From Hexactinellida sp. DTS-2022 (Eukaryota > Porifera > Hexactinellida), in assembly GCA_028753945.1 (NCBI GenBank), contig JAPNXP010000002.1, positions 7,316,001 to 7,380,000 on the forward strand: DNA of 64,000 nucleotides, written 5' to 3'. The notes below the pieces were generated by a model. That model saw nothing but the letters and a program-made list of their open reading frames with translations. It made no database searches and had not been told where the DNA came from. Position numbers and translations under genes: made by a program. Shown here piece after piece: positions 9,661-54,872 of the stretch; the first letter of the stretch is position 1; every line of letters begins with the position of its first letter.

Positions 9661-9674
9661 GGGAATTACTTTAA

Positions 9675-10391
9675 GGTTAAATTACCCCACGTGAATGAAA
9701 GTTCTTGTATTAATCTGTAATTGTGAGAAATAGATACCTATACGATACAAAGCAATAAACAAAAAAGAAAATGTCCTTATCTATTATACTTTTTATTTTT
9801 TGTCGGTTTCAAAATTTGGCAAATACAGATCTCCCATAGGGCGATTTCCAAAAGTGGAGATCGATATTATGCTGTAATTTGGCAATGCGGGCATCAATGT
9901 TTGTTATCAGAATCAATATTTAAAAATTATAAGCGTTACGGATTGGTAGACAGTTTACATTTTTGAATTAAGACTTGGAATTTTTTTGATCAAACATTTT
10001 AGCAAATATCGCATAAAAAGATGATCTTTTTATTCATTTTTTGGTTTCAAAAGGTCGCAATATTTTTTATTTAGATCTCATCAAAATTCTAAACCATCAA
10101 CCAACCGCCCATAACGATGATCTATCTGATAGATCAGACAGTATGAGTCTTTAGGAAATAATGATCTTCAAATCCACACACATATCAGGTGGAGTATGAG
10201 AAATCCCCCTATGGAACTTTTGTATTAGCATAAAACTGCACCCCAATAAAATCGAGGTTTTAGAACATAATTTGATTTCGTTTTAGTTTGAATCTAGCTA
10301 TAATGTCTTCTATCATATATCTGAAATTCAAACTCCCAACTTTAAAACTAAATTCATGCGGTTTTTTGGGTGAATCTGACGTAATTTAACC
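9675..10391 (+). mobile_element. TTAA-flanked element, family B, copy 1
   Basis: This 717-bp element has TTAA at 9671-9674 and 10392-10395. Its ends GGTTAAATTACCCCACGTG / reverse-complement GGTTAAATTACGTCAGATTC are inverted over about 11 bp and then diverge. The second copy (54106-54823) is alike over its whole length. It is non-coding. Confidence 0.85.
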
Positions 10392-10395
10392 TTAA

Positions 10396-10790
10396 AGGGC
10401 CACTATACTCAAGATTGCAAAAGATTTATTTTTGAGTTTATTTCCTATTAGTGGTTGTAATAAACGAGAAGAAAATCAGGCTTTTTTTTATAATTCAGAG
10501 TTGAATAAAACTTACTAGGGCTCGGTGAAATCGGGAAATCAACTATATTTGACCATTTTAGTTGAAGTATAAATGACAGCCGCACTATGCTAGTCAGAGA
10601 AATTGATATTCGTTTTTTTTTCGATAGTATCCTATAAAGTACAGCGACAGTGAAAGTTTCAGGTGAATTTGACATCTAGTTTAACTGTAGCAGTGATGTT
10701 TTGACAAATTTAGATTGAGGAACAGTCACGAAAATTTTATTAGGCTGTTCTCTGAGGAAAAATTGACTAATTTAGTTCCTTACACCTTGT
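10396..10790 (+). mobile_element. Fragment related to TTAA-flanked family C
   Basis: It begins directly at the right TTAA of the family B copy with AGGGCCACTATACTCAAG, close to the family C end GGCCAAACTATACTCAAG. About 10595-10720 aligns with the reverse complement of 46250-46330 (GATAGTA-CCT-TAAAGTA, TTTCAGGTGAAT, TAGTTT). The other end was not identified, so this is probably a truncated copy. The AAAGGG start is typical of Kolobok/T2 elements as I remember them. Confidence 0.5.
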
Positions 10791-13830: not shown

Positions 13831-13859
13831 GCTTAATAATGTTAGTTTATATAATAGAA

Positions 13860-14060
13860 GTATTTAAAAGCACGAAATATTACATATCAAAGAATGTTAA
13901 TTGCGATACTGAAAAATGCTGAATAATAAAAAATTAGATCACTAAATTGAGATTCTGAAGACTTTGCAGAATTTATTTTGAAAGATTTTCACTTCTCATA
14001 TAATTTTATGATATATCAGCTTCATTTCAATATGTAATCTCGCTTTAGAATTTTGCCAAT
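13860..14060 (+). repeat. Dispersed repeat also found at the right edge of the satellite array
   Basis: It shares an ordered set of motifs (attgagat or attgacat, then gaagactttgcagaat, ttcacttctca, ataattttatgata, ttcattt) with 42715-42925. In the other copy the satellite ends just upstream of the shared part. Confidence 0.6.
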
Positions 14061-18733: not shown

Positions 18734-18847
18734 TAAAAATATTGGTTAAAATATCTATGCTAATAGCTACATGTATATTATATTAATCAATATTTAATAA
18801 ATAAAAATTGTTAGGGGTCCTGTAGCCTAAATCTCACTGAGTCCGAA

Positions 18848-19870
18848 AACAAGGAATATTTAGTCGATTATTGACTGCACATAGTGTGTAAGTATGAAGA
18901 TCTTCTGTACTAATATGATATCACTAAAATGCACCGGATGTAGAAGATAAGTGGACCTATTTTCTTTAATTACAGTCAGTAAATAAGAAATATTCCGACA
19001 TATTTAATAAATTTTGTCCTAAACAAGAAATATTTAGACTATTATTCATTCACGCAGTTTATCACAATGAAGATCTTCAGGACTAATATTACGGAAAATG
19101 CCCGAATGTGGAAGATAATAGAACCTATTCTCTATAATTTAAGTCCATAAATATGGAATATTCGGACATATTTGATTAATTTAGTCAAATACAAGGAATA
19201 TTTAGACTATTATTCATCACACAGTTTATCACAATGAATATCTTCAGGACTAATATTAAGGAAAATTCCCGAATGTGGTAGATTATAAGACTTATATTCT
19301 CTCTAGTTTTTGTTCGGAAGTATTGAATATTCAGACATATTTAGTAAATTTAGTCCGAAAACATTGAATATTTAGACTATTATTCAATCACACAGTTTAT
19401 CACAAGAATATCTTCAGGACAAATATTAAGGAAAATGCCCGAATGTGGTAGATTATATGACCTATTCTCTCTAGTTTTTGTCCGTAAATATGGAAAGTCC
19501 GACATATTTATTAAATTTAGTCCGAAAACAAGGAATATTAAGAATATTATTCACTGCACACAGTATGACAGAATGAAGATCTTCAGGACGAATATGACGG
19601 AAAACACCCGAATGTGGTAGATAATTGGCCATATTCTCTTTTATTTTAGTCATAAAATATGGAATATTCGGAAATATTTAATTAATTTATTACGACAACA
19701 AGGAATATTTAGACAATTATTCATTCACGCAGTTTATCACAATGAAGATCTTTCGGACTAATATTACGGAAATGCCCGAATGTGGAAGATAATAGAACCT
19801 ATCCTCTATAATTATAGTAAGTGAATATGGAATATTCCGACATATTTAAAGAACATATTTATCTAATATA
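18848..19870 (+). repeat. 168-bp tandem satellite, about six copies
   Basis: The block ggaatattcggacatattt recurs near 18987, 19155, 19324, 19491, 19661 and 19829, a spacing of 167-170 bp. Other shared parts are aatatttagactattattca, gaagatcttcaggactaat and cccgaatgtgg. Copies differ by point changes and short indels. The array ends beside the hAT fragment and may have replaced the rest of that element. Confidence 0.9.
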
Positions 19871-21120: not shown

Positions 21121-21338
21121 TCAGCAGTGTTTTTGGGAAATTAATGCATAAAGTATTAAATTTATTGAATTCTATCAGAATATGTTAGTCCCAAATTAAT
21201 TTCTCATCACCACTTAATAAATTTTCTTAGAAAACATTGATTTAAATTTACATAAAGCACGAAATGTATCAGAGAACAGGCAGTACCGTCCAGGCGGAGG
21301 AGGAGAGTGTTCACTTAGTGTATTGCTTGTCTTAGAAC

Positions 21339-24300
21339 ACTTTGGTTTAACTAAAATTAGTATATTTATTAAATATTGAGCCACACATCAACAGGAACAA
21401 CCGTCCAGGCGGAGGAGCAGAGTGTTCACTTAGTGTATTGCTTGTCTTGGCACACCTTGGTTTAACTAAAATTTGTCGAATTTATTAAATATTGAGCCAC
21501 ACATCAACAGGAACTACCGTCCAGGCGAGGAGAAGTAGCACACTTTGGTTTAACCAAAATTTCTTTCATATATTTATTATTGAGTCACACATCAACAGGC
21601 AGTACTGTCCAGGAGGAGGAGCAGAGTGTTCACTTAGTGTATTATTTGTCTTAGCACACTTTGGTTTGCTTAAATTTGTGAAATTTATTAAATATTGAGC
21701 CACACATTAAAAGGCAGTACCGTCCAGGCGGAGGAGCAGAGTGTTCACTTAGTGTATTGCTTGTCTTAGAACACTTTGGTTTAACTAAAATTTGTTATAT
21801 TTATTAAATATTGAGCCACACATCAACCGGCACTACCGTCAAGGCGGAGGAGCAGAGTGTTCACTTAGTGTATTGCTTGTCTTTGCACACTTTGGTTTAA
21901 CTAAAAAAAATTTAATTTATTAAATATTTAGCCACACATCAACCGGCACTACCGTCAAGGCGGAGGAGCAGTGTTCACTTAGTGTATTGCTTGTCTTTGC
22001 ACACTTTGGCTTAACTAAAATTTGTTTAATTTATTAAATATTTAGCCACACATCAACAGGCATTACCGTCCAGGCGGAGGAGCAGAGTGTTCACTTAGTG
22101 TATTGCTTGTCTTTGCACACTTTGGTTTAACTAAAATATATTTTATATATTTATTATTGAGCCACACATCAACAGGCAGTACTGTCCAGGATGAGGAGCA
22201 GAGTGTTCACTTAGTGTATTGTTTGTCTTAGCACACTTTGGTTTAGCTTAAATTTGTTGTATTTATTAAATATTTAGCCACACATCAACAGGAACTACCG
22301 TCCAGGCGGAGGAGCAGAGTGTTCACTTAGTGTATTGCTTGTCTTAGCACACTTTGGTTTAACTAAAATTTGTTATATTTATTAAATATTGAGCCACACA
22401 TCAACCGGCACTACCGTCAAAGCGGAGGAGCAGAGTGTTCACTTAGTGTATTGCTTGTCTTTGCACACTTTGGCTTAAGGAGATAGATCCTCAAATCAAT
22501 CTCTATTATTAATTGTTTAAGCATTCCAACTATACTTTGATACACTATGTATCCAAATCCGGAAGGAAAAATCGATTCGGACATTTTTTTTACCTTTTTG
22601 ACGTCACTAAAGGTCAAAGTCGCCGTCATTTTGTTAAAAAGAATTTCCGCATAATTTCCAGGAAGTGACCTTTGCACGGCTCTCATATCTCAAAAAGTAT
22701 AAGTCGTAGAGAAAAAAACTATCCCTCAAAAATGGTCCTTATCAGTAGTAGGTTTTTTCCCGCCGTGTCGATTTTCAACTTTAATACAAAGTTATGGAGT
22801 TAATAATTATATAATGCCAAATTTCTGATAAAATCGAGCGATTATTTGAAAATCTATAGATATAAATATTAAAATCGAAATCGACAATTCTGTGTGGGGG
22901 GAAAACTTCGAATAATAGAGTAGAGTTAAATTGGCACTTAATTAGAACTTGCGCCAATCAAAGAAAATTGCTAGAAATGCCGTTGACTAGTATGGATTCA
23001 CTATTACGCTATTTTAAACTATCAATATCTAATTCAAATTTTTCGAGTTTGGAAATTCTGAGTTTCTACGTCCTTCTTAGAATAACTTGTACTGTCCAAA
23101 AATGCAATAATAATTGGGGGTTATCGGGTGTTTAAAATTTGAGGATCTATCTCCTTAACTAAAATTTGTTTAATATATTAAATATTTAGCCACACATCAA
23201 CAGGCATTACCGTCCAGGCGGAGGAGCAGAGTGTTCACTTAGTGTATTGCTTCCGTTAGCACACTTTGGTTTAACTAAAATTTGTTTAATTTATTAAATA
23301 TTTAGCCACACATCAACCGGCACTAGCGTCAAGGCGGAGGAGCATAGTGTTCACTTAGTGTATTGCTTGTCTTTGCACACTTTGGTTTAACTAAAATATG
23401 TTTTATATATTTATTATTGAGCCACACATCAACAGGCAGTACTGTCCAGGAAGAGGAGCAGAGTGTTCACTTAGTGTATTGTTTGTCTTAGCACACTTTG
23501 GTTTAGCTTAAATTTGTTGTATTTATTAAATATTTAGCCACACATCAATAGGAACTACCGTCCAGGCGGAGGAGCAGAGTGTTCACTTAGTGTATTGCTT
23601 GTCTTTGTACACTTTGGCTTAACTAAAATTTGTTTAATTTATTAAATATTTAGCCACACATCAACAGGCACTACCATCCAGGCAGAGGAGTAGACTGTTC
23701 ACTTAATGTATTGCGTGTCTTAGAACACTTTGGTTTAACTAAAATATGTTTAATTTATTAAATATTGAGCCACACATCAACAGGCACTACCGTCCAGGCA
23801 GAGGAGCAGTGTTCACTTAGTGTATTGTTTGTCTTAGCACACTTTGGTTTAGCTTAAATTTGTGTTATTGATTCAATATTGAGCCACACATTAACAGGCA
23901 GTACCGTCCAGGCGGAGGAGCAGAGTGTTCACTTAGTGTATTGCTTGTCTGAGAATACTTTGGTTTAACTAAAATTAGTATATTTATTAAATATTGAGCC
24001 ACACATCAACAGGAACTACCGTCCAGGCGAGGAGAAGTAGCACACTTTGGTTTAACCAAAATTTCTTTTATATATTTATTATTGAGTCACACATCAACAG
24101 GCAGTACTGTCCAGGAGGAGGAGCAGAGTGTTCACTTAGTGTATTATTTGTCTTAGCACACTTTGGTTTAACTAAAATTTGTTATATTTATTAAATATTG
24201 AGCCACACATCAACCGGCACTACCGTCAAGGCGGAGGAGCAGAGTGTTCACTTAGTGTATTGCTTGTCTTTGCACACTTTGGCTAAACTAAAATTTGTTT

Positions 24301-27300
24301 AATTTATTAAATATTTAGCCACACATCAACAGGCATTACCGTCCAGGCGGAGGAGCAGAGTGTTCACTTAGTGTATTGCTTGTCTTTGCACACTTTGGTT
24401 TAACTAAAATATCTTTTATATATTTATTATTGAGCCACACATCAACAGGCAGTACTGTCCGGGAAGAGGAGCAGAGTGTTCACTTAGTGTATTGTTTGTC
24501 TTAGCACACTTTGGTTTAACTAAAATTTGTTTAATTTATTAAATATTTAGCCACACATCAACCGGCACTAGCGTCAAGGCGGAGGAGCATAGTGTTCACT
24601 TAGTGTATTGCTTGTCTTTGCACACTTTGGTTTAACTAAAATATGTTTTATATATTTATTATTGAGCCACACATCAACAGGCAGTACTGTCCAGGAAGAG
24701 GAGCAGAGTGTTCACTTAGTGTATTGTTTGTCTTAGCACACTTTGGTTTAGCTTAAATTTGTTGTATTTATTAAATATTTAGCCACACATCAACAGGCAC
24801 TACCATCCAGGCAGAGGAGTAGACTGTTCACTTAATGTATTGCGTGTCTTAGAACACTTTGGTTTAACTAAAATTTGTCGAATTTATCAAATATTGAGCC
24901 ACACATCAACAGGAACTACCGTCCAGGCGAGGAGAAGTAGCACACTTTGGTTTAACCAAAATTTCTTTTATATATTTATTATTGAGTCACACATCAACAG
25001 GCAGTACTGTCCAGGAGGAGGAGCAGAGTGTTCACTTAGTGTATTATTTGTCTTAGCACACTTTGGTTTAACTAAAATTTGTTATATTTATTAAATATTG
25101 AGCCACACATCAACCGGCACTACCGTCAAGGCGGAGGAGCAGAGTGTTCACTTAGTGTATTGCTTGTCTTTGCACACTTTGGTTTAACTAAAATATCTTT
25201 TATATATTTATTATTGAGCCACACATCAACAGGCAGTACTGTCCAGGAAGAGGAGCAGAGTGTTCACTTAGTGTATTGTTTGTCTTAGCACACTTTGGTT
25301 TAGCTTAAATTTGTTGTATTTATTAAATATTTAGCCACACATCAACAGGAACTACCGTCCAGGCGAAGGAGCAGAGTGTTCACTTAGTGTATTGCTTGTC
25401 TTAGCACACTTTGGTTTAACTAAAATTTGTTATATTTATTAAATATTGAGCCACACATCAACCGGCACTACCGTCAAAGCGGAGGAGCAGAGTGTTCACT
25501 TAGTGTATTGCTTGTCTTTGCAAACTTTGGCTTAACTAAAATTTGTTTAATTTATTAAATATTTAGCCACACATCAAAAGGCATTACCGTCCAGGCGGAG
25601 GAGCAGAGTGTTCACTTAGTGTATTGCTTCCGTTAGCACACTTTGGTTTAACTAAAATTTGTTTAATTTATTAAATATTTAGCCACACATCAACCGGCAC
25701 TAGCGTCAAGGCGGAGGAGCATAGTGTTCACTTAGTGTATTGCTTGTCTTTGCACACTTTGGTTTAACTAAAATATGTTTTATATATTTATTATTGAGCC
25801 ACACATCAACAGGCAGTACTGTCCAGGAAGAGGAGCAGAGTGTTCACTTAGTGTATTGTTTGTCTTAGCACACTTTGGTTTAGCTTAAATTTGTTGTATT
25901 TATTAAATATTTAGCCACACATCAATAGGAACTACCGTCCAGGCGGAGGAGCAGAGTGTTCACTTAGTGTATTGCTTGTCTTTGTACACTTTGGCTTAAC
26001 TAAAATTTGTTTAATTTATTAAATATTTAGCCACACATCAACAGGCACTACCATCCAGGCAGAGGAGTAGACTGTTCACTTAATGTATTGCGTGTCTTAG
26101 AACACTTTGGTTTAACTAAAATATGTTTAATTTATTAAATATTGAGCCACACATCAACAGGCACTACCGTCCAGGCAGAGGAGCAGTGTTCACTTAGTGT
26201 ATTGTTTGTCTTAGCACACTTTGGTTTAGCTTAAATTTGTGTTATTGATTCAATATTGAGCCACACATTAACAGGCAGTACCGTCCAGGCGGAGGAGCAG
26301 AGTGTTCACTTAGTGTATTGCTTGTCTGAGAATACTTTGGTTTAACTAAAATTAGTATATTTATTAAATATTGAGCCACACATCAACAGGCATTACCGTC
26401 CATGCGGATGAGTAGAGTGTTCACTTATGTATTGCTTGTCTTTGCACACTTTGGTTTAACCTAAATTTGTTTTATTTTTAAATATTTTGCCACACATCAA
26501 CAGGCACCACCATCCAGGCAGAGGAGTAGACTGTTCACTTAATGTATTGCGTGTCTTAGAACACTTTGGTTTAACTAAAATATGTTTTATATATTTATTA
26601 TTGAGCCACACATTAACAGGCAGTACCGTCCAGGCGGAGGAGCAGAGTGTTCACTCAGTGTATTGCTTGTCTGAGAATACTTTGGTTTAACTAAAATTAG
26701 TATATTTATTAAATATTGAGCCACACATCAACAGGCATTACCGTCCAGGCGGAGGAGCAGAGTGTTCACTTATGTATTGCTTGTCTTTGCACACTTTGGT
26801 TTAACCTAAATTTGTTTTATTTTTAAATATTTTGCCACACATCAACAGGCACCACCATCCAGGCAGAGGAGTAGACTGTTCACTTAATGTATTGCGTGTC
26901 TTAGAACACTTTGGTTTAACTAAAATATGTTTTATATATTTATTATTGAGCCACACATCAACAGGCAGTACTGTCCAGGCAGAGGAGCAGTGTTCACTTA
27001 GTGTATTGTTTGTCTTAGCACACTTTGGTTTAGCTTAAATTTGTGTAATTGATTCAATATTGAGCCACACATTAACAGGCAGTGCGGTCCAGGCGGAGGA
27101 GCAGAGTGTTCACTTAGTGTATTGCTTGTCTTAGAATACTTTGGTTTAACTAAAATTAGTATATTTATTAAATATTGAGCCACACATCAACAGGAACAAC
27201 CGTCCAGGCAGAGCAGCAGAGTGTTCACTAAGCGTATTGCTTGTCTTAGAACACTTTGGTTTAACTAAAATTTGTTTAATTTATTAAATATTGATCCACA

Positions 27301-28032
27301 CATCAACAGGCACTACCGTCCAGGCAGAGGAGCAGTGTTCACTTAGTGTATTGTTTGTCTTAGCACACTTTGGTTTAGCTTAAATTTGTGTTATTGATTC
27401 AATATTGAGCCACACATTAACAGGGAGTACCGTCCAGGCGGAGGAGCAGAGTGTTCACTTAGTGTATTGCTTGCCTTAGCACACTTTGGTTTAACTAAAA
27501 TTTGTTTAATTTATTAAATATTTAGCCACACATCAACAAGAACAACCGTCCAGGCGGATGAGCAGAGTGTTCACTTAGTGTATTGCTTGTCTTGGCACAC
27601 TTTGGTTTAACTAAAATTTGTCGAATTTATCAAATATTGAGCCACACATCAACAGGAACTACCGTCCAGGCGAGGAGAAGTAGCACACTTTGGTTTAACC
27701 AAAATTTCTTTTATATATTTATTATTGAGTCACACATCAACAGGCAGTACTGTCCAGGAGGAGGAGCAGAGTGTTCACTTAGTGTATTATTTGTCTTAGC
27801 ACACTTTGGTTTAACTAAAATTTGTTATATTTATTAAATATTGAGGCACACATCAACAGGCACTACCGTCCAGGCAGAGGAGCAGTGTTCACTTAGTGTA
27901 TTGTTTCTCTTAGCACACTTTGGTTTAGCTTAAATTTGTGTTATTGATTCAATATTGAGCCACACATTAACAGGCAGTACCGTCCAGGCGGAGGAGCAGA
28001 GTGTTCACTTAGTGTATTGCTTGTCTGAGAAT
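21339..28032 (+). repeat. 6694-bp tandem block, copy 1
   Basis: Everything from about 21339 recurs 6694 bp downstream, including unit order, variant units and the nested TTAA element. Just before the block the two copies differ (cttagaacac versus ctgagaatac at 28025). It is a higher-order repeat of about 52 satellite units plus one insertion. Confidence 0.9.
22479..23154. mobile_element. TTAA-flanked element, family G, inside satellite (copy in block 1)
   Basis: The 676-bp element has TTAA at 22475-22478 and 23155-23158 and ends GGAGATAGATCCTCAAAT / ATTTGAGGATCTATCTCC. The TTAA it used is the one in the satellite's own ggcttaactaaaa; removing the element and one TTAA restores an ordinary unit. 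The 89-codon minus ORF crossing its left end is chance. Confidence 0.9.
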
Positions 28033-31000
28033 ACTTTGGTTTAACTAAAATTAGTATATTTATTAAATATTGAGCCACACATCAACAGGAACAACCGTCC
28101 AGGCGGAGGAGCAGAGTGTTCACTTAGTGTATTGCTTGTCTTGGCACACCTTGGTTTAACTAAAATTTGTCGAATTTATTAAATATTGAGCCACACATCA
28201 ACAGGAACTACCGTCCAGGCGAGGAGAAGTAGCACACTTTGGTTTAACCAAAATTTCTTTCATATATTTATTATTGAGTCACACATCAACAGGCAGTACT
28301 GTCCAGGAGGAGGAGCAGAGTGTTCACTTAGTGTATTATTTGTCTTAGCACACTTTGGTTTGCTTAAATTTGTGAAATTTATTAAATATTGAGCCACACA
28401 TTAAAAGGCAGTACCGTCCAGGCGGAGGAGCAGAGTGTTCACTTAGTGTATTGCTTGTCTTAGAACACTTTGGTTTAACTAAAATTTGTTATATTTATTA
28501 AATATTGAGCCACACATCAACCGGCACTACCGTCAAGGCGGAGGAGCAGAGTGTTCACTTAGTGTATTGCTTGTCTTTGCACACTTTGGTTTAACTAAAA
28601 AAAATTTAATTTATTAAATATTTAGCCACACATCAACCGGCACTACCGTCAAGGCGGAGGAGCAGTGTTCACTTAGTGTATTGCTTGTCTTTGCACACTT
28701 TGGCTTAACTAAAATTTGTTTAATTTATTAAATATTTAGCCACACATCAACAGGCATTACCGTCCAGGCGGAGGAGCAGAGTGTTCACTTAGTGTATTGC
28801 TTGTCTTTGCACACTTTGGTTTAACTAAAATATATTTTATATATTTATTATTGAGCCACACATCAACAGGCAGTACTGTCCAGGATGAGGAGCAGAGTGT
28901 TCACTTAGTGTATTGTTTGTCTTAGCACACTTTGGTTTAGCTTAAATTTGTTGTATTTATTAAATATTTAGCCACACATCAACAGGAACTACCGTCCAGG
29001 CGGAGGAGCAGAGTGTTCACTTAGTGTATTGCTTGTCTTAGCACACTTTGGTTTAACTAAAATTTGTTATATTTATTAAATATTGAGCCACACATCAACC
29101 GGCACTACCGTCAAAGCGGAGGAGCAGAGTGTTCACTTAGTGTATTGCTTGTCTTTGCACACTTTGGCTTAAGGAGATAGATCCTCAAATCAATCTCTAT
29201 TATTAATTGTTTAAGCATTCCAACTATACTTTGATACACTATGTATCCAAATCCGGAAGGAAAAATCGATTCGGACATTTTTTTTACCTTTTTGACGTCA
29301 CTAAAGGTCAAAGTCGCCGTCATTTTGTTAAAAAGAATTTCCGCATAATTTCCAGGAAGTGACCTTTGCACGGCTCTCATATCTCAAAAAGTATAAGTCG
29401 TAGAGAAAAAAACTATCCCTCAAAAATGGTCCTTATCAGTAGTAGGTTTTTTCCCGCCGTGTCGATTTTCAACTTTAATACAAAGTTATGGAGTTAATAA
29501 TTATATAATGCCAAATTTCTGATAAAATCGAGCGATTATTTGAAAATCTATAGATATAAATATTAAAATCGAAATCGACAATTCTGTGTGGGGGGAAAAC
29601 TTCGAATAATAGAGTAGAGTTAAATTGGCACTTAATTAGAACTTGCGCCAATCAAAGAAAATTGCTAGAAATGCCGTTGACTAGTATGGATTCACTATTA
29701 CGCTATTTTAAACTATCAATATCTAATTCAAATTTTTCGAGTTTGGAAATTCTGAGTTTCTACGTCCTTCTTAGAATAACTTGTACTGTCCAAAAATGCA
29801 ATAATAATTGGGGGTTATCGGGTGTTTAAAATTTGAGGATCTATCTCCTTAACTAAAATTTGTTTAATATATTAAATATTTAGCCACACATCAACAGGCA
29901 TTACCGTCCAGGCGGAGGAGCAGAGTGTTCACTTAGTGTATTGCTTCCGTTAGCACACTTTGGTTTAACTAAAATTTGTTTAATTTATTAAATATTTAGC
30001 CACACATCAACCGGCACTAGCGTCAAGGCGGAGGAGCATAGTGTTCACTTAGTGTATTGCTTGTCTTTGCACACTTTGGTTTAACTAAAATATGTTTTAT
30101 ATATTTATTATTGAGCCACACATCAACAGGCAGTACTGTCCAGGAAGAGGAGCAGAGTGTTCACTTAGTGTATTGTTTGTCTTAGCACACTTTGGTTTAG
30201 CTTAAATTTGTTGTATTTATTAAATATTTAGCCACACATCAATAGGAACTACCGTCCAGGCGGAGGAGCAGAGTGTTCACTTAGTGTATTGCTTGTCTTT
30301 GTACACTTTGGCTTAACTAAAATTTGTTTAATTTATTAAATATTTAGCCACACATCAACAGGCACTACCATCCAGGCAGAGGAGTAGACTGTTCACTTAA
30401 TGTATTGCGTGTCTTAGAACACTTTGGTTTAACTAAAATATGTTTAATTTATTAAATATTGAGCCACACATCAACAGGCACTACCGTCCAGGCAGAGGAG
30501 CAGTGTTCACTTAGTGTATTGTTTGTCTTAGCACACTTTGGTTTAGCTTAAATTTGTGTTATTGATTCAATATTGAGCCACACATTAACAGGCAGTACCG
30601 TCCAGGCGGAGGAGCAGAGTGTTCACTTAGTGTATTGCTTGTCTGAGAATACTTTGGTTTAACTAAAATTAGTATATTTATTAAATATTGAGCCACACAT
30701 CAACAGGAACTACCGTCCAGGCGAGGAGAAGTAGCACACTTTGGTTTAACCAAAATTTCTTTTATATATTTATTATTGAGTCACACATCAACAGGCAGTA
30801 CTGTCCAGGAGGAGGAGCAGAGTGTTCACTTAGTGTATTATTTGTCTTAGCACACTTTGGTTTAACTAAAATTTGTTATATTTATTAAATATTGAGCCAC
30901 ACATCAACCGGCACTACCGTCAAGGCGGAGGAGCAGAGTGTTCACTTAGTGTATTGCTTGTCTTTGCACACTTTGGCTAAACTAAAATTTGTTTAATTTA

Positions 31001-34000
31001 TTAAATATTTAGCCACACATCAACAGGCATTACCGTCCAGGCGGAGGAGCAGAGTGTTCACTTAGTGTATTGCTTGTCTTTGCACACTTTGGTTTAACTA
31101 AAATATCTTTTATATATTTATTATTGAGCCACACATCAACAGGCAGTACTGTCCGGGAAGAGGAGCAGAGTGTTCACTTAGTGTATTGTTTGTCTTAGCA
31201 CACTTTGGTTTAACTAAAATTTGTTTAATTTATTAAATATTTAGCCACACATCAACCGGCACTAGCGTCAAGGCGGAGGAGCATAGTGTTCACTTAGTGT
31301 ATTGCTTGTCTTTGCACACTTTGGTTTAACTAAAATATGTTTTATATATTTATTATTGAGCCACACATCAACAGGCAGTACTGTCCAGGAAGAGGAGCAG
31401 AGTGTTCACTTAGTGTATTGTTTGTCTTAGCACACTTTGGTTTAGCTTAAATTTGTTGTATTTATTAAATATTTAGCCACACATCAACAGGCACTACCAT
31501 CCAGGCAGAGGAGTAGACTGTTCACTTAATGTATTGCGTGTCTTAGAACACTTTGGTTTAACTAAAATTTGTCGAATTTATCAAATATTGAGCCACACAT
31601 CAACAGGAACTACCGTCCAGGCGAGGAGAAGTAGCACACTTTGGTTTAACCAAAATTTCTTTTATATATTCATTATTGAGTCACACATCAACAGGCAGTA
31701 CTGTCCAGGAGGAGGAGCAGAGTGTTCACTTAGTGTATTATTTGTCTTAGCACACTTTGGTTTAACTAAAATTTGTTATATTTATTAAATATTGAGCCAC
31801 ACATCAACCGGCACTACCGTCAAGGCGGAGGAGCAGAGTGTTCACTTAGTGTATTGCTTGTCTTTGCACACTTTGGTTTAACTAAAATATCTTTTATATA
31901 TTTATTATTGAGCCACACATCAACAGGCAGTACTGTCCAGGAAGAGGAGCAGAGTGTTCACTTAGTGTATTGTTTGTCTTAGCACACTTTGGTTTAGCTT
32001 AAATTTGTTGTATTTATTAAATATTTAGCCACACATCAACAGGAACTACCGTCCAGGCGAAGGAGCAGAGTGTTCACTTAGTGTATTGCTTGTCTTAGCA
32101 CACTTTGGTTTAACTAAAATTTGTTATATTTATTAAATATTGAGCCACACATCAACCGGCACTACCGTCAAAGCGGAGGAGCAGAGTGTTCACTTAGTGT
32201 ATTGCTTGTCTTTGCAAACTTTGGCTTAACTAAAATTTGTTTAATTTATTAAATATTTAGCCACACATCAAAAGGCATTACCGTCCAGGCGGAGGAGCAG
32301 AGTGTTCACTTAGTGTATTGCTTCCGTTAGCACACTTTGGTTTAACTAAAATTTGTTTAATTTATTAAATATTTAGCCACACATCAACCGGCACTAGCGT
32401 CAAGGCGGAGGAGCATAGTGTTCACTTAGTGTATTGCTTGTCTTTGCACACTTTGGTTTAACTAAAATATGTTTTATATATTTATTATTGAGCCACACAT
32501 CAACAGGCAGTACTGTCCAGGAAGAGGAGCAGAGTGTTCACTTAGTGTATTGTTTGTCTTAGCACACTTTGGTTTAGCTTAAATTTGTTGTATTTATTAA
32601 ATATTTAGCCACACATCAATAGGAACTACCGTCCAGGCGGAGGAGCAGAGTGTTCACTTAGTGTATTGCTTGTCTTTGTACACTTTGGCTTAACTAAAAT
32701 TTGTTTAATTTATTAAATATTTAGCCACACATCAACAGGCACTACCATCCAGGCAGAGGAGTAGACTGTTCACTTAATGTATTGCGTGTCTTAGAACACT
32801 TTGGTTTAACTAAAATATGTTTAATTTATTAAATATTGAGCCACACATCAACAGGCACTACCGTCCAGGCAGAGGAGCAGTGTTCACTTAGTGTATTGTT
32901 TGTCTTAGCACACTTTGGTTTAGCTTAAATTTGTGTTATTGATTCAATATTGAGCCACACATTAACAGGCAGTACCGTCCAGGCGGAGGAGCAGAGTGTT
33001 CACTTAGTGTATTGCTTGTCTGAGAATACTTTGGTTTAACTAAAATTAGTATATTTATTAAATATTGAGCCACACATCAACAGGCATTACCGTCCATGCG
33101 GATGAGTAGAGTGTTCACTTATGTATTGCTTGTCTTTGCACACTTTGGTTTAACCTAAATTTGTTTTATTTTTAAATATTTTGCCACACATCAACAGGCA
33201 CCACCATCCAGGCAGAGGAGTAGACTGTTCACTTAATGTATTGCGTGTCTTAGAACACTTTGGTTTAACTAAAATATGTTTTATATATTTATTATTGAGC
33301 CACACATTAACAGGCAGTACCGTCCAGGCGGAGGAGCAGAGTGTTCACTCAGTGTATTGCTTGTCTGAGAATACTTTGGTTTAACTAAAATTAGTATATT
33401 TATTAAATATTGAGCCACACATCAACAGGCATTACCGTCCAGGCGGAGGAGCAGAGTGTTCACTTATGTATTGCTTGTCTTTGCACACTTTGGTTTAACC
33501 TAAATTTGTTTTATTTTTAAATATTTTGCCACACATCAACAGGCACCACCATCCAGGCAGAGGAGTAGACTGTTCACTTAATGTATTGCGTGTCTTAGAA
33601 CACTTTGGTTTAACTAAAATATGTTTTATATATTTATTATTGAGCCACACATCAACAGGCAGTACTGTCCAGGCAGAGGAGCAGTGTTCACTTAGTGTAT
33701 TGTTTGTCTTAGCACACTTTGGTTTAGCTTAAATTTGTGTAATTGATTCAATATTGAGCCACACATTAACAGGCAGTGCGGTCCAGGCGGAGGAGCAGAG
33801 TGTTCACTTAGTGTATTGCTTGTCTTAGAATACTTTGGTTTAACTAAAATTAGTATATTTATTAAATATTGAGCCACACATCAACAGGAACAACCGTCCA
33901 GGCAGAGCAGCAGAGTGTTCACTAAGCGTATTGCTTGTCTTAGAACACTTTGGTTTAACTAAAATTTGTTTAATTTATTAAATATTGATCCACACATCAA

Positions 34001-34726
34001 CAGGCACTACCGTCCAGGCAGAGGAGCAGTGTTCACTTAGTGTATTGTTTGTCTTAGCACACTTTGGTTTAGCTTAAATTTGTGTTATTGATTCAATATT
34101 GAGCCACACATTAACAGGCAGTACCGTCCAGGCGGAGGAGCAGAGTGTTCACTTAGTGTATTGCTTGCCTTAGCACACTTTGGTTTAACTAAAATTTGTT
34201 TAATTTATTAAATATTTAGCCACACATCAACAAGAACAACCGTCCAGGCGGATGAGCAGAGTGTTCACTTAGTGTATTGCTTGTCTTGGCACACTTTGGT
34301 TTAACTAAAATTTGTCGAATTTATCAAATATTGAGCCACACATCAACAGGAACTACCGTCCAGGCGAGGAGAAGTAGCACACTTTGGTTTAACCAAAATT
34401 TCTTTTATATATTTATTATTGAGTCACACATCAACAGGCAGTACTGTCCAGGAGGAGGAGCAGAGTGTTCACTTAGTGTATTATTTGTCTTAGCACACTT
34501 TGGTTTAACTAAAATTTGTTATATTTATTAAATATTGAGGCACACATCAACAGGCACTACCGTCCAGGCAGAGGAGCAGTGTTCACTTAGTGTATTGTTT
34601 CTCTTAGCACACTTTGGTTTAGCTTAAATTTGTGTTATTGATTCAATATTGAGCCACACATTAACAGGCAGTACCGTCCAGGCGGAGGAGCAGAGTGTTC
34701 ACTTAGTGTATTGCTTGTCTGAGAAT
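28033..34726 (+). repeat. 6694-bp tandem block, copy 2
   Basis: It matches copy 1 at every position compared, except one seen difference: T at 24977 versus C at 31671. Identity continues to about 34782, where the next unit diverges (aggcattacc versus aggaacaacc). Confidence 0.9.
29173..29848. mobile_element. TTAA-flanked element, family G (copy in block 2)
   Basis: It is identical by eye to 22479-23154 and offset by exactly 6694 bp, so it was copied with the block and is not an independent insertion. TTAA lies at 29169-29172 and 29849-29852. Confidence 0.9.
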
Positions 34727-34782
34727 ACTTTGGTTTAACTAAAATTAGTATATTTATTAAATATTGAGCCACACATCAACAG

Positions 34783-37700
34783 GCATTACCGTCCAGGCGG
34801 AGGAGCAGAGTGTTCACTTATGTATTGCTTGTCTTTGCACACTTTGGTTTAACCTAAATTTGTTTTATTTTTAAATATTTTGCCACACATCAACAGGCAC
34901 CACCATCCAGGCAGAGGAGTAGACTGTTCACTTAATGTATTGCGTGTCTTAGAACACTTTGGTTGAACTAAAATATGTTTTATATATTTATTATTGAGCC
35001 ACACATCAACAGGCAGTACTGTCCAGGAAGAGGAGCAGAGTTTTCACTTAGTGTATTGTTTTCTTAGCACACTTTGGTTTAGCTTAAATTTGTTATATTT
35101 ATTAAATATTTAGCCACACATCAACAGGCACTACCGTCCAGGCAGAGCAGCAGAGTGTTCACTAAGCGTATTGCTTGTCTTAGAACACTTTGGTTTAACT
35201 AAAATTTGTTTAATTTATTAAATATTGATCCACACATCAACAGGCACTACCGTCCAGGCAGAGGAGCAGTGTTCACTTAGTGTATTGTTTGTCTTAGCAC
35301 ACTTTGGTTTAGCTTAAATTTGTGTTATTGATTCAATATTGAGCCACACATTAACAGGCAGTACCGTCCAGGCGGAGGAGCAGAGTGTTCACTTAGTGTA
35401 TTGCTTGTCTTGGCACACTTTGGTTTAACTAAAATTTGTCGAATTTATCAAATATTGAGCCACACATCAACAGGAACTACCGTCCAGGCGAGGAGAAGTA
35501 GCACACTTTGGTTTAACCAAAATTTCTTTTATATATTTATTATTGAGTCACACATCAACAGGCAGTACTGTCCAGGAGGAGGAGCAGAGTGTTCACTTAG
35601 TGTATTATTTGTCTTAGCACACTTTGGTTTAACTAAAATTTGTTATATTTATTAAATATTGAGCCATACATCAACCGGCAGTACCGTCAAGGCGGAGGAG
35701 CAGAGTGTTCACTTAGTGTATTGCTTCCGTTAGCACACTTTGGTTTAACTAAAATTTGTTTAATTTATTAAATATTTAGCCACACATCAACCGGCACTAC
35801 CGTCAAGGCGGAGGAGCAGAGTGTTCACTTAGTGTATTGCTTGTCTTTGCACACTTTGGTTTAACTAAAATATCTTTTATATATTTATTATTGAGCCATA
35901 CATCAACAGGCAGTATTGTCCAGGAAGAGGAGCAGAGTGTTCACTTAGTGTATTGTTTGTCTTAGCACACTTTGGTTTAGCTTAAATTTGTTGTATTTAT
36001 TAAATATTTAGCCACACATCAACAGGAACTACCGTCCAGGCGGAGGAGCAGAGTGTTCACTTAGTGTAGTGCTTGTCTTAGCACACTTTAGTTTAACTAA
36101 AATTTGTTATATTTATTAAATATTGAGCCACACATCAACCGGCACTACCGTCAAGGCGGAGGAGCAGAGTGTTCACTTAGTGTATTGCTTGTCTTTGCAC
36201 ACTTTGGCTTAACTAAAATTTGTTTAATTTATTAAATATTTAGCCACACATCAACAGGCATTACCGTCCAGGCGGAGGAGCAGAGTGTTCACTTAGTGTA
36301 TTACTTCCGTTAGCACACTTTGGTTTAACTAAAATTTGTTTAATTTATTAAATATTTAGCCACACATCAACCGGCACTAGCGTCAAGGCGGAGGAGCATA
36401 GTGTTCACTTAGTAAATTGCTTGTCTTTGCACACTTTGGTTTAACTAAAATATGTTTTATATATTTATTATTGAGCCACACATCAACAGGCAGTACTGTC
36501 CAGGAAGAGGAGCAGAGTGTTCACTTAGTGTATTGTTTGTCTTAGCACACTTTGGTTTAGCTTAAATTTGTTGTATTTATTAAATATTTAGCCACACATC
36601 AACAGGAACTACCGTCCAGGCGGAGGAGCAGAGTGTTCACTTAGTGTATTGCTTGTCTTTGCACACTTTGGCTTAACTAAAATTTGTTTAATTTATTAAA
36701 TATTTAGCCACACATCAACAGGCACTACCATCCAGGCAGAGGAGCAGTGTTCACTTAGTGTATTGTTTGTCTTAGCACACTTTGGTTTAGCTTAAATTTG
36801 TGTTATTGATTCAATATTGAGCCACACATTAACAGGCAGTACCGTCCAGGCGGAGGAGCAGAGTGTTCACTTAGTGTATTGCTTGTCTGAGAATACTTTG
36901 GTTTAACTAAAATTAGTATATTTATTAAATATTGAGCCACACATCAACAGGCATTACCGTCCAGGCGGAGGAGCAGAGTGTTCACTTATGTATTGCTTGT
37001 CTTTGCACACTTTGGTTTAACCTAAATTTGTTTTATTTTTAAATATTTTGCCACACATCAACAGGCACCACCATCCAGGCAGAGGAGTAGACTGTTCACT
37101 TAATGTATTGCGTGTCTTAGAACACTTTGGTTTAACTAAAATATGTTTTATATATTTATTATTGAGCCACACATCAACAGGCAGTACTGTCCAGGAAGAG
37201 GAGCAGAGTTTTCACTTAGTGTATTGTTTGTCTTAGCACACTTTGGTTTAGCTTAAATTTGTTCTATTTATTAAATATTTAGCCACACATCAACAGGCAC
37301 TACCGTCCAGGCAGAGCAGCAGAGTGTTCACTAAGCGTATTGCTTGTCTTAGAACACTTTGGTTTAACTAAAATTTGTTTAATTTATTAAATATTGATCC
37401 ACACATCAACAGGCACTACCGTCCAGGCAGAGGAGCAGTGTTCACTTAGTGTATTGTTTGTCTTAGCACACTTTGGTTTAGCTTAAATTTGTGTTATTGA
37501 TTCAATATTGAGCCACACATTAACAGGCAGTACCGTCCAGGCGGAGGAGCAGAGTGTTCACTTAGTGTATTGCTTGTCTGAGAATACTTTGGTTTAACTA
37601 AAATTAGTATATTTATTAAATATTGAGCCACACATCAACAGGCATTACCGTCCAGGCGGAGGAGCAGAGTGTTCACTTATGTATTGCTTGTCTTTGCACA

Positions 37701-40700
37701 CTTTGGTTTAGCTTAAATTTGTGTTATTGATTCAATATTGAGCCACACATTAACAGGCAGTACCGTCCAGGCGGAGGAGCAGAGTGTTCACTTAGTGTAT
37801 TGCTTGTCTGAGAATACTTTGGTTTAACTAAAATTAGTATATTTATTAAATATTGAGCCACACATCAACAGGCATTACCGTCCAGGCGGAGGAGCAGAGT
37901 GTTCACTTATGTATTGCTTGTCTTTGCACACTTTGGTTTAACCTAAATTTGTTTTATTTTTAAATATTTTGCCACACATCAACAGGCACCACCATCCAGG
38001 CAGAGGAGTAGACTGTTCACTTAATGTATTGCGTGTCTTAGAACACTTTGGTTTAACTAAAATATGTTTTATATATTTATTATTGAGCCACACATCAACA
38101 GGCAGTACTGTCCAGGAAGAGGAGCAGAGTTTTCACTTAGTGTATTGTTTGTCTTAGCACACTTTGGTTTAGCTTAAATTTGTTCTATTTATTAAATATT
38201 TAGCCACACATCAACAGGCACTACCGTCCAGGCAGAGCAGCAGAGTGTTCACTAAGCGTATTGCTTGTCTTAGAACACTTTGGTTTAACTAAAATTTGTT
38301 TAATTTATTAAATATTGATCCACACATCAACAGGCACTACCGTCCAGGCAGAGGAGCAGTGTTCACTTAGTGTATTGTTTGTCTTAGCACACTTTGGTTT
38401 AGCTTAAATTTGTGTTATTGATTCAATATTGAGCCACACATTAACAGGCAGTGCGGTCCAGGCGGAGGAGCAGAGTGTTCACTTAGTGTATTGCTTGTCT
38501 TAGAATACTTTGGTTTAACTAAAATTAGTATATTTATTAAATATTGAGCCACACATCAACAGGAACAACCGTCCAGGCGGAGGAGCAGAGTGTTCACTTA
38601 GCGTATTGCTTGTCTTAGAACACTTTGGTTTAACTAAAATTTGTTTAATTTATTAAATATTGTTCCACACATCAACAGGCACTACCGTCCAGGCAGAGGA
38701 GCAGTGTTCACTTAGTGTATTGTTTGTCTTAGCACACTTTGGTTTAGCTTAAATTTGTGTTATTGATTCAATATTGAGCCACACATTAACAGGCAGTACC
38801 GTCCAGGCGGAGGAGCAGAGTGTTCACTTAGTGTATTGCTTGTCTTAGAATACTTTGGTTTAACTAAAATTAGTATATTTATTAAATATTGAGCCACACA
38901 TCAACAGGAACAACCGTCCAGGCGGAGGAGCAGAGTGTTCACTTAGTGTATTGCTTGTCTTTGCACACTTTGGCTTAACTAAAATTTGTTTAATTTATTA
39001 AATTTTGAGCCACACATCAACAGGCACTACCGTCCAGGCAGAGCAGCAGAGTGTTCACTTAGCGTATTGCTTGTCTTAGAACACTTTGGTTTAACTAAAA
39101 TTTGTTTAATTTATTAAATATTGATCCACACATCAACAGGCACTACCGTCCAGGCAGAGGAGCAGTGTTCACTTAGTGTATTGTTTGTCTTAGCACACTT
39201 TGGTTTAGCTTAAATTTGTGTTATTGATTCAATATTGAGCCACACATTAACAGGCACTACCGTCCAGGCAGAGCAGCAGAGTGTTCACTAAGCGTATTGC
39301 TTGTCTTAGAACACTTTGGTTTAACTAAAATTTGTTTAATTTATTAAATATTGATCCACACATCAACAGGCACTACCGTCCAGGCAGAGGAGCAGTGTTC
39401 ACTTAGTGTATTGTTTGTCTTAGCACACTTTGGTTTAGCTTCAATTTGTGTTATTGATTCAATATTGAGCCACACATTAACAGGCAGTGCGGTCCAGGCG
39501 GAGGAGCAGAGTGTTCACTTAGTGTATTGCTTGTCTTAGAATACTTTGGTTTAACTAAAATTAGTATATTTATTAAATATTGAGCCACACATCAACAGGA
39601 ACAACCGTCCAGGCGGAGGAGCAGAGTGTTCACTTAGCGTATTGCTTGTCTTAGAACACTTTGGTTTAACTAAAATTTGTTTAATTTATTAAATATTGAT
39701 CCACACATCAACAGGCACTACCGTCCAGGCAGAGGAGCAGTGTTCACTTAGTGTATTGTTTGTCTTAGCACACTTTGGTTTAGCTTAAATTTGTGTTATT
39801 GATTCAATATTGAGCCACACATTAACAGGCAGTACCGTCCAGGCGGAGGAGCAGAGTGTTCACTTAGTGTATTGCTTGTCTTAGAATACTTTGGTTTAAC
39901 TAAAATTAGTATATTTATTAAATATTGAGCCACACATCAACAGGAACAACCGTCCAGGCGGAGGAGCAGAGTGTTCACTTAGTGTATTGCTTGTCTTTGC
40001 ACACTTTGGCTTAACTAAAATTTGTTTAATTTATTAAATTTTGAGCCACACATCAACAGGCACTACCGTCCAGGCAGAGCAGCAGAGTGTTCACTTAGCG
40101 TATTGCTTGTCTTAGAACACTTTGGTTTAACTAAAATTTGTTTAATTTATTAAATATTGATCCACACATCAACAGGCACTACCGTCCAGGCAGAGGAGCA
40201 GTGTTCACTTAGTGTATTGTTTGTCTTAGCACACTTTGGTTTAGCTTAAATTTGTGTTATTGATTCAATATTGAGCCACACATTAACAGGCAGTGCGTTC
40301 CAGGCGGAGGAGCAGAGTGTTCACTTAGTGTATTGCTTGTCTTAGAATACTTTGGTTTAACTAAAATTAGTATATTTATTAAATATTGAGCCACACATCA
40401 ACAGGAACAACCGTCCAGGCGGAGGAGCAGAGTGTTCACTTATGTATTGCTTGTCTTTGCACACTTTGGTTTAACCTAAATTTGTTTTATTTTTAAATAT
40501 TTTGCCACACATCAACAGGCACCACCATCCAGGCAGAGGAGTAGACTGTTCACTTAATGTATTGCGTGTCTTAGAACACTTTGGTTTAACTAAAATATGT
40601 TTTATATATTTATTATTGAGCCACACATCAACAGGCAGTACTGTCCAGGAAGAGGAGCAGAGTTTTCACTTAGTGTATTGTTTGTCTTAGCACACTTTGG

Positions 40701-42704
40701 TTTAGCTTAAATTTGTTCTATTTATTAAATATTTAGCCACACATCAACAGGCACTACCGTCCAGGCAGAGCAGCAGAGTGTTCACTAAGCGTATTGCTTG
40801 TCTTAGAACACTTTGGTTTAACTAAAATTTGTTTAATTTATTAAATATTGATCCACACATCAACAGGCACTACCGTCCAGGCAGAGGAGCAGTGTTCACT
40901 TAGTGTATTGTTTGTCTTAGCACACTTTGGTTTAGCTTAAATTTGTGTTATTGATTCAATATTGAGCCACACATTAACAGGCAGTGCGGTCCAGGCGGAG
41001 GAGCAGAGTGTTCACTTAGTGTATTGCTTGTCTTAGAATACTTTGGTTTAACTAAAATTAGTATATTTATTAAATATTGAGCCACACATCAACAGGAACA
41101 ACCGTCCAGGCGGAGGAGCAGAGTGTTCACTTAGCGTATTGCTTGTCTTAGAACACTTTGGTTTAACTAAAATTTGTTTAATTTATTAAATATTGATCCA
41201 CACATCAACAGGCACTACCGTCCAGGCAGAGGAGCAGTGTTCACTTAGTGTATTGTTTGTCTTAGCACACTTTGGTTTAGCTTAAATTTGTGTTATTGAT
41301 TCAATATTGAGCCACACATTAACAGGCAGTACCGTCCAGGCGGAGGAGCAGAGTGTTCACTTAGTGTATTGCTTGTCTTAGAATACTTTGGTTTAACTAA
41401 AATTAGTATATTTATTAAATATTGAGCCACACATCAACAGGAACAACCGTCCAGGCGGAGGAGCAGAGTGTTCACTTAGTGTATTGCTTGTCTTTGCACA
41501 CTTTGGCTTAACTAAAATTTGTTTAATTTATTAAATTTTGAGCCACACATCAACAGGCACTACCGTCCAGGCAGAGCAGCAGAGTGTTCACTTAGCGTAT
41601 TGCTTGTCTTAGAACACTTTGGTTTAACTAAAATTTGTTTAATTTATTAAATATTGATCCACACATCAACAGGCACTACCGTCCAGGCAGAGGAGCAGTG
41701 TTCACTTAGTGTATTGTTTGTCTTAGCACACTTTGGTTTAGCTTAAATTTGTGTTATTGATTCAATATTGAGCCACACATTAACAGGCAGTGCGTTCCAG
41801 GCGGAGGAGCAGAGTGTTCACTTAGTGTATTGCTTGTCTTAGAATACTTTGGTTTAACTAAAATTAGTATATTTATTAAATATTGAGCCACACATCAACA
41901 GGAACAACCGTCCAGGCGGAGGAGCAGAGTGTTCACTTAGCGTATTGCTTGTCTTAGAACACTTTGGTTTAACTAAAATTTGTTTAATTTATTAAATATT
42001 GAGCCACACATCAACAGGCACTACCGTCCAGGCAGAGGAGCAGTGTTCACTTAGTGTATTGTTTGTCTTAGCACACTTTGGTTTAACTAAAATTAGTATA
42101 TTTATTAAATATTGAGCCACACATCAACAGGCATTACCGTCCAGGCGGAGGAGCAGAGTGTTCACTTATGTATTGCTTGTCTTTGCACACTTTGGTTTAA
42201 CCTAAATTTGTTTTATTTTTAAATATTTTGCCACACATCAACAGGCACCACCATCCAGGCAGAGGAGTAGACTGTTCACTTAATGTATTGCGTGTCTTAG
42301 AACACTTTGGTTTAACTAAAATATGTTTTATATATTTATTATTGAGCCACACATCAACAGGCAGTACTGTCCAGGAAGAGGAGCAGAGTTTTCACTTAGT
42401 GTATTGTTTGTCTTAGCACACTTTGGTTTAGCTTAAATTTGTTCTATTTATTAAATATTTAGCCACACATCAACAGGCACTACCGTCCAGGCAGAGCAGC
42501 AGAGTGTTCACTAAGCGTATTGCTTGTCTTAGAACACTTTGGTTTAACTAAAATTTGTTTAATTTATTAAATATTGATCCACACATCAACAGGCACTACC
42601 GTCCAGGCAGAGGAGCAGTGTTCACTTAGTGTATTGTTTGTCTTAGCACACTTTGGTTTAGCTTAAATTTGTGTTATTGATTCAATATTGAGCCACACAT
42701 TAAA
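34783..42704 (+). repeat. Distal satellite part with smaller higher-order repeats
   Basis: Variant units recur at regular distances: the unit beginning at 37048 recurs at 37969 (921 bp, 8 units), 40502 (2533 bp, 22 units) and 42228 (1726 bp, 15 units). The rare variant gcagtgcg(g/t)tcc recurs near 38448, 39485, 40291, 40982 and 41786. The array stops at cacacattaa and goes straight into unrelated sequence. Confidence 0.85.
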
Positions 42705-42714
42705 TACATAAAGT

Positions 42715-42925
42715 ATATAAGTGAACGATATTGTACATATAAAACCAAGGAATGTCAATTGAGATAATAAAAAAAGCTACATCATCAATAATGACATGAT
42801 AAATTGACATTTTGAAGACTTTGCAGAATATTTTTTTTAAAAATTTCACTTCTCACATAATTTTATGATACATTAGATTCATTTCACAGTATAAAATCAG
42901 ATTTCAATTTTGTAACAAAAAACAC
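42715..42925 (+). repeat. Dispersed repeat, second copy, at the array's right edge
   Basis: It aligns with 13860-14060 (gaagactttgcagaat, ttcacttctca, ataattttatgata). The satellite therefore abuts or lies within an interspersed element. Confidence 0.6.
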
Positions 42926-44962: not shown

Positions 44963-46524
44963 GGCCAAACTATACTCAAGAATGATATTGAGATTATGAT
45001 CTTTTGGGATAGTACCCTATAAAATAAACCAGCATTTAAAATTTCAGCTGTTTCTGACTCATACTTTCGAAGTTGCGACCTTTTTAGAGCTTAGGAATGT
45101 ATGCATCATCATCAAAAGCTCAATTTTCAAATGGACGATCATAACTTTTGGTCTAGATTTCACAGATTTGGTTCAATATGCTTGAAACCAAGTTTAAATG
45201 AATGAATACATATGTTCCTTTATAGAAATACGTTTTTTAACACTTCCGAAAAAAACTTTCAGAGTTACAGCACTTTGAAGTCAGATTTCTACCGCCAACC
45301 TATAACATTTCGATGTTTGGCAGTCAAAGACTGACTTCAATGGGCTGTTACTCTGAAAGTTTTTGTCGGAAGTGTTAAAAAACGTATTTCTATAATGGAA
45401 CATATGTATTCATTCATTCAAACTTGGTTTCGAACATATTGAACCAAATTTGTGGAATCTAGACCAAAAGTTATAATGGTAGGTTTTTACATACACCACT
45501 ATTTTGAATCAAATCCAGTGAATTTATATGTTTATAACTATTTTGCAAATGATTTCATCAGTTTTTCATATGAGTTGGTAATAGTACATAGATGTGAATA
45601 CAAAGTTAGTGCTAAGCTCTAGAGTTTATAGTTTTCGAGAAAAATATTTGCTAAATCATAAAAATGGGCACACTTTATGCCCATATATGGTCATTTGGAA
45701 AAATTGTGCGAGTTAGGGTCTCAAAGTGTATTATTGAGAGATAGTAAACCGGGTATTGGGATCATTTTGCACTCAAAATTTTATTTATTGGTCTACGGGT
45801 TACTGAGATTCAAAATAGAAAAGTGAAAGGACCACCCAATGAGTTGAAAGGTCAGAAAGTTTTAATTGCTTGAGCGTTCACAGTTTTCATCCTAATTGTT
45901 TGAAACCAAGTGTAAACTAATGAATATATATTCAATTTGGGAATGACCCTTGATCTAAACTCTACAATGCAAACTTTCAGAGTTCCAGCCCTTTGAAGTC
46001 TGACTTGGCACATTGACAATCCAAATCTGACTTTAAATGACTATAACTCAGAATTTTTTGATTAGAATGTTGAAAATTTTGGTTTAGATCCTAAGTATAT
46101 ATGCAAAGATACTATTGGATGAATAACAACGAAATTGATAGTAAATTATGGCAGTGCGAGCCTACAAACTTTTTAACCCATTTGAAAAAGTCACCCTCCA
46201 TGATGTCCATCACATTCGAGGATCTTATAAAGGTCGCTACAGCAAAACTATCGGTCAGATTCACCTGAAATTTGAAATGTAGGTATACTTTACAGGGTAC
46301 TATCCAAAAACAATCGAATCTCAATTTATCTGACGAGCATTGTGGGGCCGTAATTTAAATTATCGTCCGAAATTGGCTATATAACAGGGAATTCCTGGGT
46401 CACAGAGCCCTACTGACTTCAAATCTACTCAGAATTCAAAAAAAATTTGCCAGATTATCTACCAGTGTGAAACAAACAGGAAAACGAATTAAACTCATTT
46501 TCCCATTTGCAGTATAGTTTGGCC
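44963..46524. mobile_element. 1562-bp TTAA-flanked element, family C
   Basis: It has TTAA at 44959-44962 and 46525-46528 and ends GGCCAAACTATACTCAAG / reverse-complement GGCCAAACTATACTGCAAAT. Subterminal inverted similarity continues (gatagtacccT-TAAA near both ends). It contains a long internal hairpin (45140-45480). No ORF has transposase motifs. A fragment of the same family lies at 10396-10790. Confidence 0.85.
45140..45480. repeat. Long hairpin with ~150-bp arms
   Basis: The left arm (about 45140-45290) runs ...ttggttcaatatgcttgaaa, catatgttcc, acttccgaaaaa, agttacagc. The right arm (about 45320-45478) carries the reverse complement in order, with few mismatches, around a ~30-bp loop. 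A transcript would fold into one long double-stranded stem. Confidence 0.8.
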
Positions 46525-54101: not shown

Positions 54102-54105
54102 TTAA

Positions 54106-54823: not shown

Positions 54824-54872
54824 TTAATAGAGCCACCTTTTAATTTGGAACCCATAAAGGTGTGAAAAAGTA

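Follow-up and report, generated by a model that had tools for sequence, protein, structure and literature searches.

A 6.7-kb block of a hexactinellid sponge satellite array, probably duplicated in tandem by a single unequal exchange

Two adjacent 6694-bp blocks in a satellite array of a hexactinellid sponge are nearly identical, and we put the probability that they are a real tandem duplication, produced by one out-of-register homologous exchange within the array, at roughly 70%. The array lies in the window (the whole 64,000-nucleotide stretch that was analyzed), which corresponds to positions 7316001 to 7380000 of contig C11. This contig is 15.56 Mb long, in an assembly of 112.4 Mb in 18 contigs. 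The features on which the analysis relies are as follows, in window coordinates.

21275..42702, plus strand: satellite array, delimited with TRF, nhmmer unit segmentation, and unit lengths
21339..28032, plus strand: block copy 1, 6694 bp, 53 units plus insertion, with the private derived base G27425
22479..23154, no strand assigned: insertion copy 1, 676-bp nonautonomous DNA transposon, with TTAA at 22475-22478 and 23155-23158
23202..24013, plus strand: 812-bp segment, which recurs with no difference at 25579-26390, 29896-30707, and 32273-33084
28033..34726, plus strand: block copy 2, 6694 bp, 53 units plus insertion, with the private base C31671
28033..28089, no strand assigned: junction tract, 57 bp identical to 21339-21395 and 34727-34783
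29173..29848, no strand assigned: insertion copy 2, the identical 676-bp transposon, carried by the block duplication
34727..42702, plus strand: rest of the array, with shorter, more diverged block copies

Base-by-base comparison of 21339-28032 with 28033-34726 revealed two substitutions in 6694 positions, T24977/C31671 and G27425/C34119, and no indel. The earlier note on this DNA, which had proposed this alignment as a check, had recognized the near-identical tandem blocks but reported only the first of the two differences. Its figure of about 52 units per block becomes 53 with segmentation, and the shared 676-bp insertion that it described is indeed present in both blocks. The diagonal at offset 6694 continues past the blocks, pairing 21339-28089 with 28033-34783 (6751 bp) with the same two mismatches. 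In register, 50 of the 53 units match their counterparts in the other block exactly. The three others are the two units with a substitution and the boundary unit, which differs to the left of the block.

The match between the blocks is far beyond chance and is not a product of general satellite similarity, because the identities between units, between neighbors, and at other offsets are much lower. Mean unit-to-unit identity was 88.6% (7381 comparisons, with block copy 2 left out), adjacent units had a mean identity of 84.0% (gaps scored as differences), and at the other ungapped offsets tried, the block reached 62.5% identity at most. Collinear blocks that differ at 2 of 6694 positions, compared with a mean difference of 16% between adjacent units, are the mark of a block duplication. 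Exact identity is not in itself unique in the array, because segments of 812 and 629 bp recur there with 0 differences; it is the length of the match that stands out. Of the 53 units of block 1, 24 have an exact counterpart within block 1, and only 15 have one in the rest of the array.

The array consists of 177 head-to-tail units in the nhmmer segmentation of 21275..42702, and it is broken only by the two copies of the insertion. Most units (166) are 114 to 116 bp, nine are deletion variants of 87 to 88 bp, and two are partial units at the ends. All share one orientation throughout, and a search of the window's minus strand for the satellite core motif, allowing up to three errors, was negative. 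A coding or RNA function for the array or the insertion was considered and rejected: the frame over the insertion had no Pfam match, Rfam at gathering thresholds gave no match in the window, and ARAGORN gave no tRNA in the window. A literature search, by description rather than by sequence, turned up no paper recognized as describing this 115- to 116-bp satellite. A second tandem array with another unit lies at 18840-19849 (six copies of about 168 bp, about 80% match, TRF).

The 676-bp insertion sits at the same base of the same unit in both blocks, with 0 differences in 676 positions. Its start, GGAGATAGATCCTCAAAT, and its end are exact reverse complements, which gives an 18-bp perfect terminal inverted repeat, and it has TTAA on both flanks. 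A genome search with the insertion yielded 67 matches; 40 of 477 first-look candidates were scored, and these are on 13 of the 18 contigs. Seven separate insertions were checked for TTAA: the block insertion, with its two copies counted once, and six others, designated L011 to L016. TTAA was present on both sides in three of the seven, the block insertion, L011, and L012, and the latter two match the block insertion at 96% (L011) and 95% (L012), their lengths differing by 15 bp. L014 has TTAA on one side only, both ends of L016 are present with no adjoining TTAA, L013 has the right end only, without TTAA, and L015 has no clear ends; L013 was excluded from the alignment of transposon copies. 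There is no frame of at least 91 amino acids inside the insertion, and the only stop-free frame of at least 90 amino acids that overlaps it had no Pfam match. TTAA target-site duplications in independent insertions, together with terminal inverted repeats and a lack of coding capacity, are the properties of a TTAA-targeting MITE, and they mark the insertion as a nonautonomous, TTAA-targeting DNA transposon of a dispersed family. The TTAA flanks, perfect short inverted repeats, and many dispersed copies are like those of piggyBac-type nonautonomous elements. However, piggyBac termini have a CCY-type start, unlike the terminus of the insertion, which starts GGAGAT. The element may be piggyBac-type, a label taken from target preference only.

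The contents of the blocks make it possible to order the events. The 812-bp segment at 23202-24013 is copied at a distance of 2377 bp, at 25579-26390, with no difference, and represents an earlier copy event nested in the block. Block doubling came later than the insertion and the 812-bp copy because both blocks contain both. Thus, the array existed first, the insertion and the 812-bp copy followed in either order, then the block was doubled, and then each copy acquired one substitution. G27425 is new in copy 1 because G is the base in only 1 of 177 units at that column. C31671 is most likely new in copy 2 because the eight other units most like the copy 2 unit all have T at the corresponding column, where C occurs in 25 of 177 units; this base could also stem from conversion. 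The divergence between the blocks, 2 in 6694, is 3.0e-4 per site (Poisson 95% range, 0.4e-4 to 1.1e-3). If 1e-9 to 1e-8 mutations per site and generation are assumed, the point estimate for the age of the duplication is about 15,000 to 150,000 generations, provided that the copies are real and have not converted each other.

The three boundary units locate the exchange. To the left of the 57-bp tract, the diagonal between the left unit and the junction unit continues for 64 satellite bases with three mismatches, as far as the array edge at 21275. To the right of the tract, the junction unit and the right unit mismatch at 28090, 28092, and 28093, and register is lost from 28127. The exchange point therefore falls inside the tract, 28033-28089, because the left and junction units differ on its left and the junction and right units differ on its right. 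The junction is in satellite phase and in register, within an identity tract common to the paired units. It has no inserted bases and no short microhomology, and the 57-bp identical tract lies inside longer homology. Homologous exchange predicts an in-phase junction with such a tract, whereas random end joining does not.

Unequal exchange, most likely between sister chromatids or homologues, would generate this structure if the unit at the start of the array (21339-21395) aligned with the one that lies 53 units on and now follows block 2 (34727-34783), and if the exchange took place inside the 57-bp stretch that is identical in both paired units. An earlier jump of the TTAA-targeting transposon and the 812-bp copy, both within the block, would have been duplicated along with it, and each copy would have gained its one substitution afterward. 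Unequal exchange is preferred because the two copies are adjacent, the product is simple, and no bases were inserted. Duplication of sets of variant units together by unequal exchange is the standard model, as described for satellites in PMC8997354 with reference to Smith (1976). Another route to the same real out-of-register duplication is break-induced replication or template switching, in which a broken fork restarted 53 units upstream and recopied the block. This mechanism has been proposed for satellite higher-order repeats and, as presented in PMC8997354, leaves the same product as unequal exchange. It is invoked for complex structures such as nested, nonadjacent copies, to which the 812-bp segment at lag 2377 belongs, but no sequence feature singles it out at a junction that has a 57-bp tract, no inserted bases, and no microhomology. 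We consider such a replication restart somewhat unlikely, with a probability that overlaps the one given to unequal exchange.

Block copies are found elsewhere in the array. A pairwise list that took in pairs of at least 400 bp and at least 98.5% identity included four copies in 34727-42702, with lengths of 868, 1561, 1275, and 1125 bp at lags of 921, 2533, 1497, and 1036 bp (0.35, 0.51, 0.55, and 0.71% divergence, respectively). It also included a 912-bp copy that diverges by 1.10% at lag 3454 and a 967-bp copy that diverges by 1.34%, at both lag 3983 and lag 10677. With lags of 921 to 3983 bp and divergence of 0.35 to 1.34%, these copies show a graded series of block-copy events in the array. 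The 6694-bp pair, at 0.03%, is the least diverged of the eight listed pairs longer than 812 bp, the other seven being 0.35 to 1.34% apart. The description of the event as very recent in the earlier note therefore holds in a relative sense, but six shorter pairs, of 812 or 629 bp, have 0 differences.

The spacing of satellite matches in the genome suggests that multi-kb block copies are common in this satellite family. Among the 150 of 382 satellite matches listed, pairs of hits with equal score and strand were sought at exactly equal spacing. In the array studied here (24 listed hits), all nine pairs at lag 6694 were equal in score. In an array at 8.50 to 8.72 Mb of C11 (119 listed hits), scores were equal for all nine pairs at lag 3555, for nine of the ten at lag 7587, and for 10 of the 18 at lag 2565. 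When scores were shuffled (1000 trials per array), the top count at any lag was four for the array studied here and five for the array at 8.50 to 8.72 Mb. The pairs at lags 3555 and 7587 fall within 3.3 and 3.9 kb, respectively. Those at lag 2565 are spread over 56 kb, which indicates several copies. Block duplication of this kind is ordinary, textbook satellite turnover.

Satellite arrays are where assemblers fail, and the main rival to a real duplication is an assembly duplication, in which two haplotypes or a repeat-graph error set one 6.7-kb block twice. The very low divergence of the copies (2 in 6694) is compatible with such an error. One private change per copy is what two independently mutating loci would show, but it fits equally well two heterozygous sites if haplotypes were set in tandem. 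However, the identity common to the three boundary units extends over only 57 bp, far below the overlap that a long-read assembler normally needs to join haplotypes, and the window does not contain any N. The similar multi-kb recurrences elsewhere on the contig also argue against an assembly duplication, although assembly faults could recur too. An assembly duplication is considered unlikely. The earlier note maintained that the shared insertion proves duplication of the block after the insertion. This order is supported by the 50 of 53 units identical in register, with neighbors at 84.0%, and by the absence of differences between the insertion copies; "proves" is too strong for a biological event, an assembly duplication being the alternative that the note itself named. 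The sequence shows the alignment, the order of events, the identity tract, and the copy in which each change lies; the correctness of the assembly and a crossover, as opposed to a replication restart, are inferred. The probability that unit-by-unit homogenization or gene conversion made two independent stretches alike is practically nil: the exact recurrence of units within block 1 and in the rest of the array, and the 812- and 629-bp segments that do not differ, are of the kind that it would produce, but it is ruled out by the conserved order of the 53 units and the shared position of the insertion at a 0.03% difference, with 50 units identical in register while neighbors average 84%.

The duplicated block has similarities to known satellite systems. 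As in the higher-order blocks attributed to unequal exchange in PMC8997354, divergent units were duplicated together in register, with the junction in unit homology. Unlike an established higher-order repeat as described there, with many successive copies of the same multi-unit block, the array holds only two copies of the 53-unit block, representing a single duplication in an array of 21 kb in one assembly. Human alpha satellite has formed new repeats of more than 1 Mb by saltatory amplification at several sites, according to PMC11062924. The block copies described here are similarly recent and low in divergence, but they represent one 6.7-kb step in a different satellite. The duplication is a clean, dateable example of one step of satellite growth, in which the order of events is directly readable because the transposon marks the block. 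It leaves the current view of satellites unchanged, and its practical use would be in checking that assemblies are correct and in measuring how often unequal exchange occurs in a short array.

The ends of the array may provide information on how it arose. The start (21275) and the end (42702) are at the same unit phase, position 59 of 116, and the array thus spans a whole number of units. Phase-matched ends fit the reinsertion of a circle of whole units. One array is weak evidence, and we put the probability that a single array would match within a few bases by chance at a few percent. On the right, the array is followed by a dispersed repeat, 42700-42886, which begins where the array ends and is also present at 13847-14029 (78% identity). 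No satellite unit was seen by eye in the approximately 250 bases before the latter copy, and the left flank has a 12-base word in common with it (E 0.3). Tetris of Drosophila carries a tandem array inside a transposon, as described in PMC4079207. A similar location for the array studied here was considered and rejected, the flanks matching each other only in satellite sequence and in short, chance-level stretches.

An exact 26-base motif of the unit occurs in the genome 641 times in the forward and 511 times in the reverse direction, and the reversed control occurs 0 times. Among the matches listed, which apparently follow contig order and do not reach C12 to C18, 12 copies of the motif are on C2 and the rest are on C11, and C1 and C3 to C10 appear without it. 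All 150 satellite matches listed, of 382, are on C11. Further arrays among the matches listed are at 3.07 to 3.10, 6.22, and 8.50 to 8.72 Mb of C11, with a small one at 3.47 Mb of C2. On the basis of the matches listed, a bias of the satellite to one chromosome (C11) is likely but not established. To our knowledge, the satellite sequence is unrelated to Drosophila 1.688 or to Responder. The long arrays of the 1.688 satellite are heterochromatic and its short, euchromatic arrays are enriched on the X, as reported in PMC7642928, and Responder, as described in PMC4280042, also has small islands, the largest on 3L and X. The satellite studied here is like these two in being one family with arrays of varied size, apparently concentrated on one chromosome among the matches listed. 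It is conceivable, though improbable, that a C11-concentrated family spreads by circle reinsertion and then grows by frequent multi-kb block duplications. If so, and if C11 should prove to be a sex chromosome or to have its centromere marked by the arrays, the array studied here would offer a small, readable model of chromosome-biased satellite seeding and expansion.

Several other features were observed in the assembly and the window. Exact strings of six TTAGG or six TTAGGG were absent from the whole assembly, in which a reversed control string occurred 16 + 37 times. The COX1 Pfam profile had no match in the whole assembly, and a mitochondrial contig was not found. A 0.7-kb repeat is present three times in the window at about 96% identity (1-708, 3843-4547, and 5161-5867), the last copy inverted relative to the other two. 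A 0.73-kb dispersed repeat occurs in direct orientation at 9671-10403 and 54102-54836 (90.5% identical). Imperfect palindromes at 45135-45480 (346 bp, 87%) and 9483-9660 (about 180 bp, 76%) are perhaps foldback-type elements. On the minus strand, 58410-60362 includes a Mutator-like transposase frame (PF20700, E 1.5e-64) followed by a same-strand PHD-finger frame (PF00628), and is probably what is left of a larger DNA transposon. PF20700 also has a weaker match at 1048-1554 on the plus strand.
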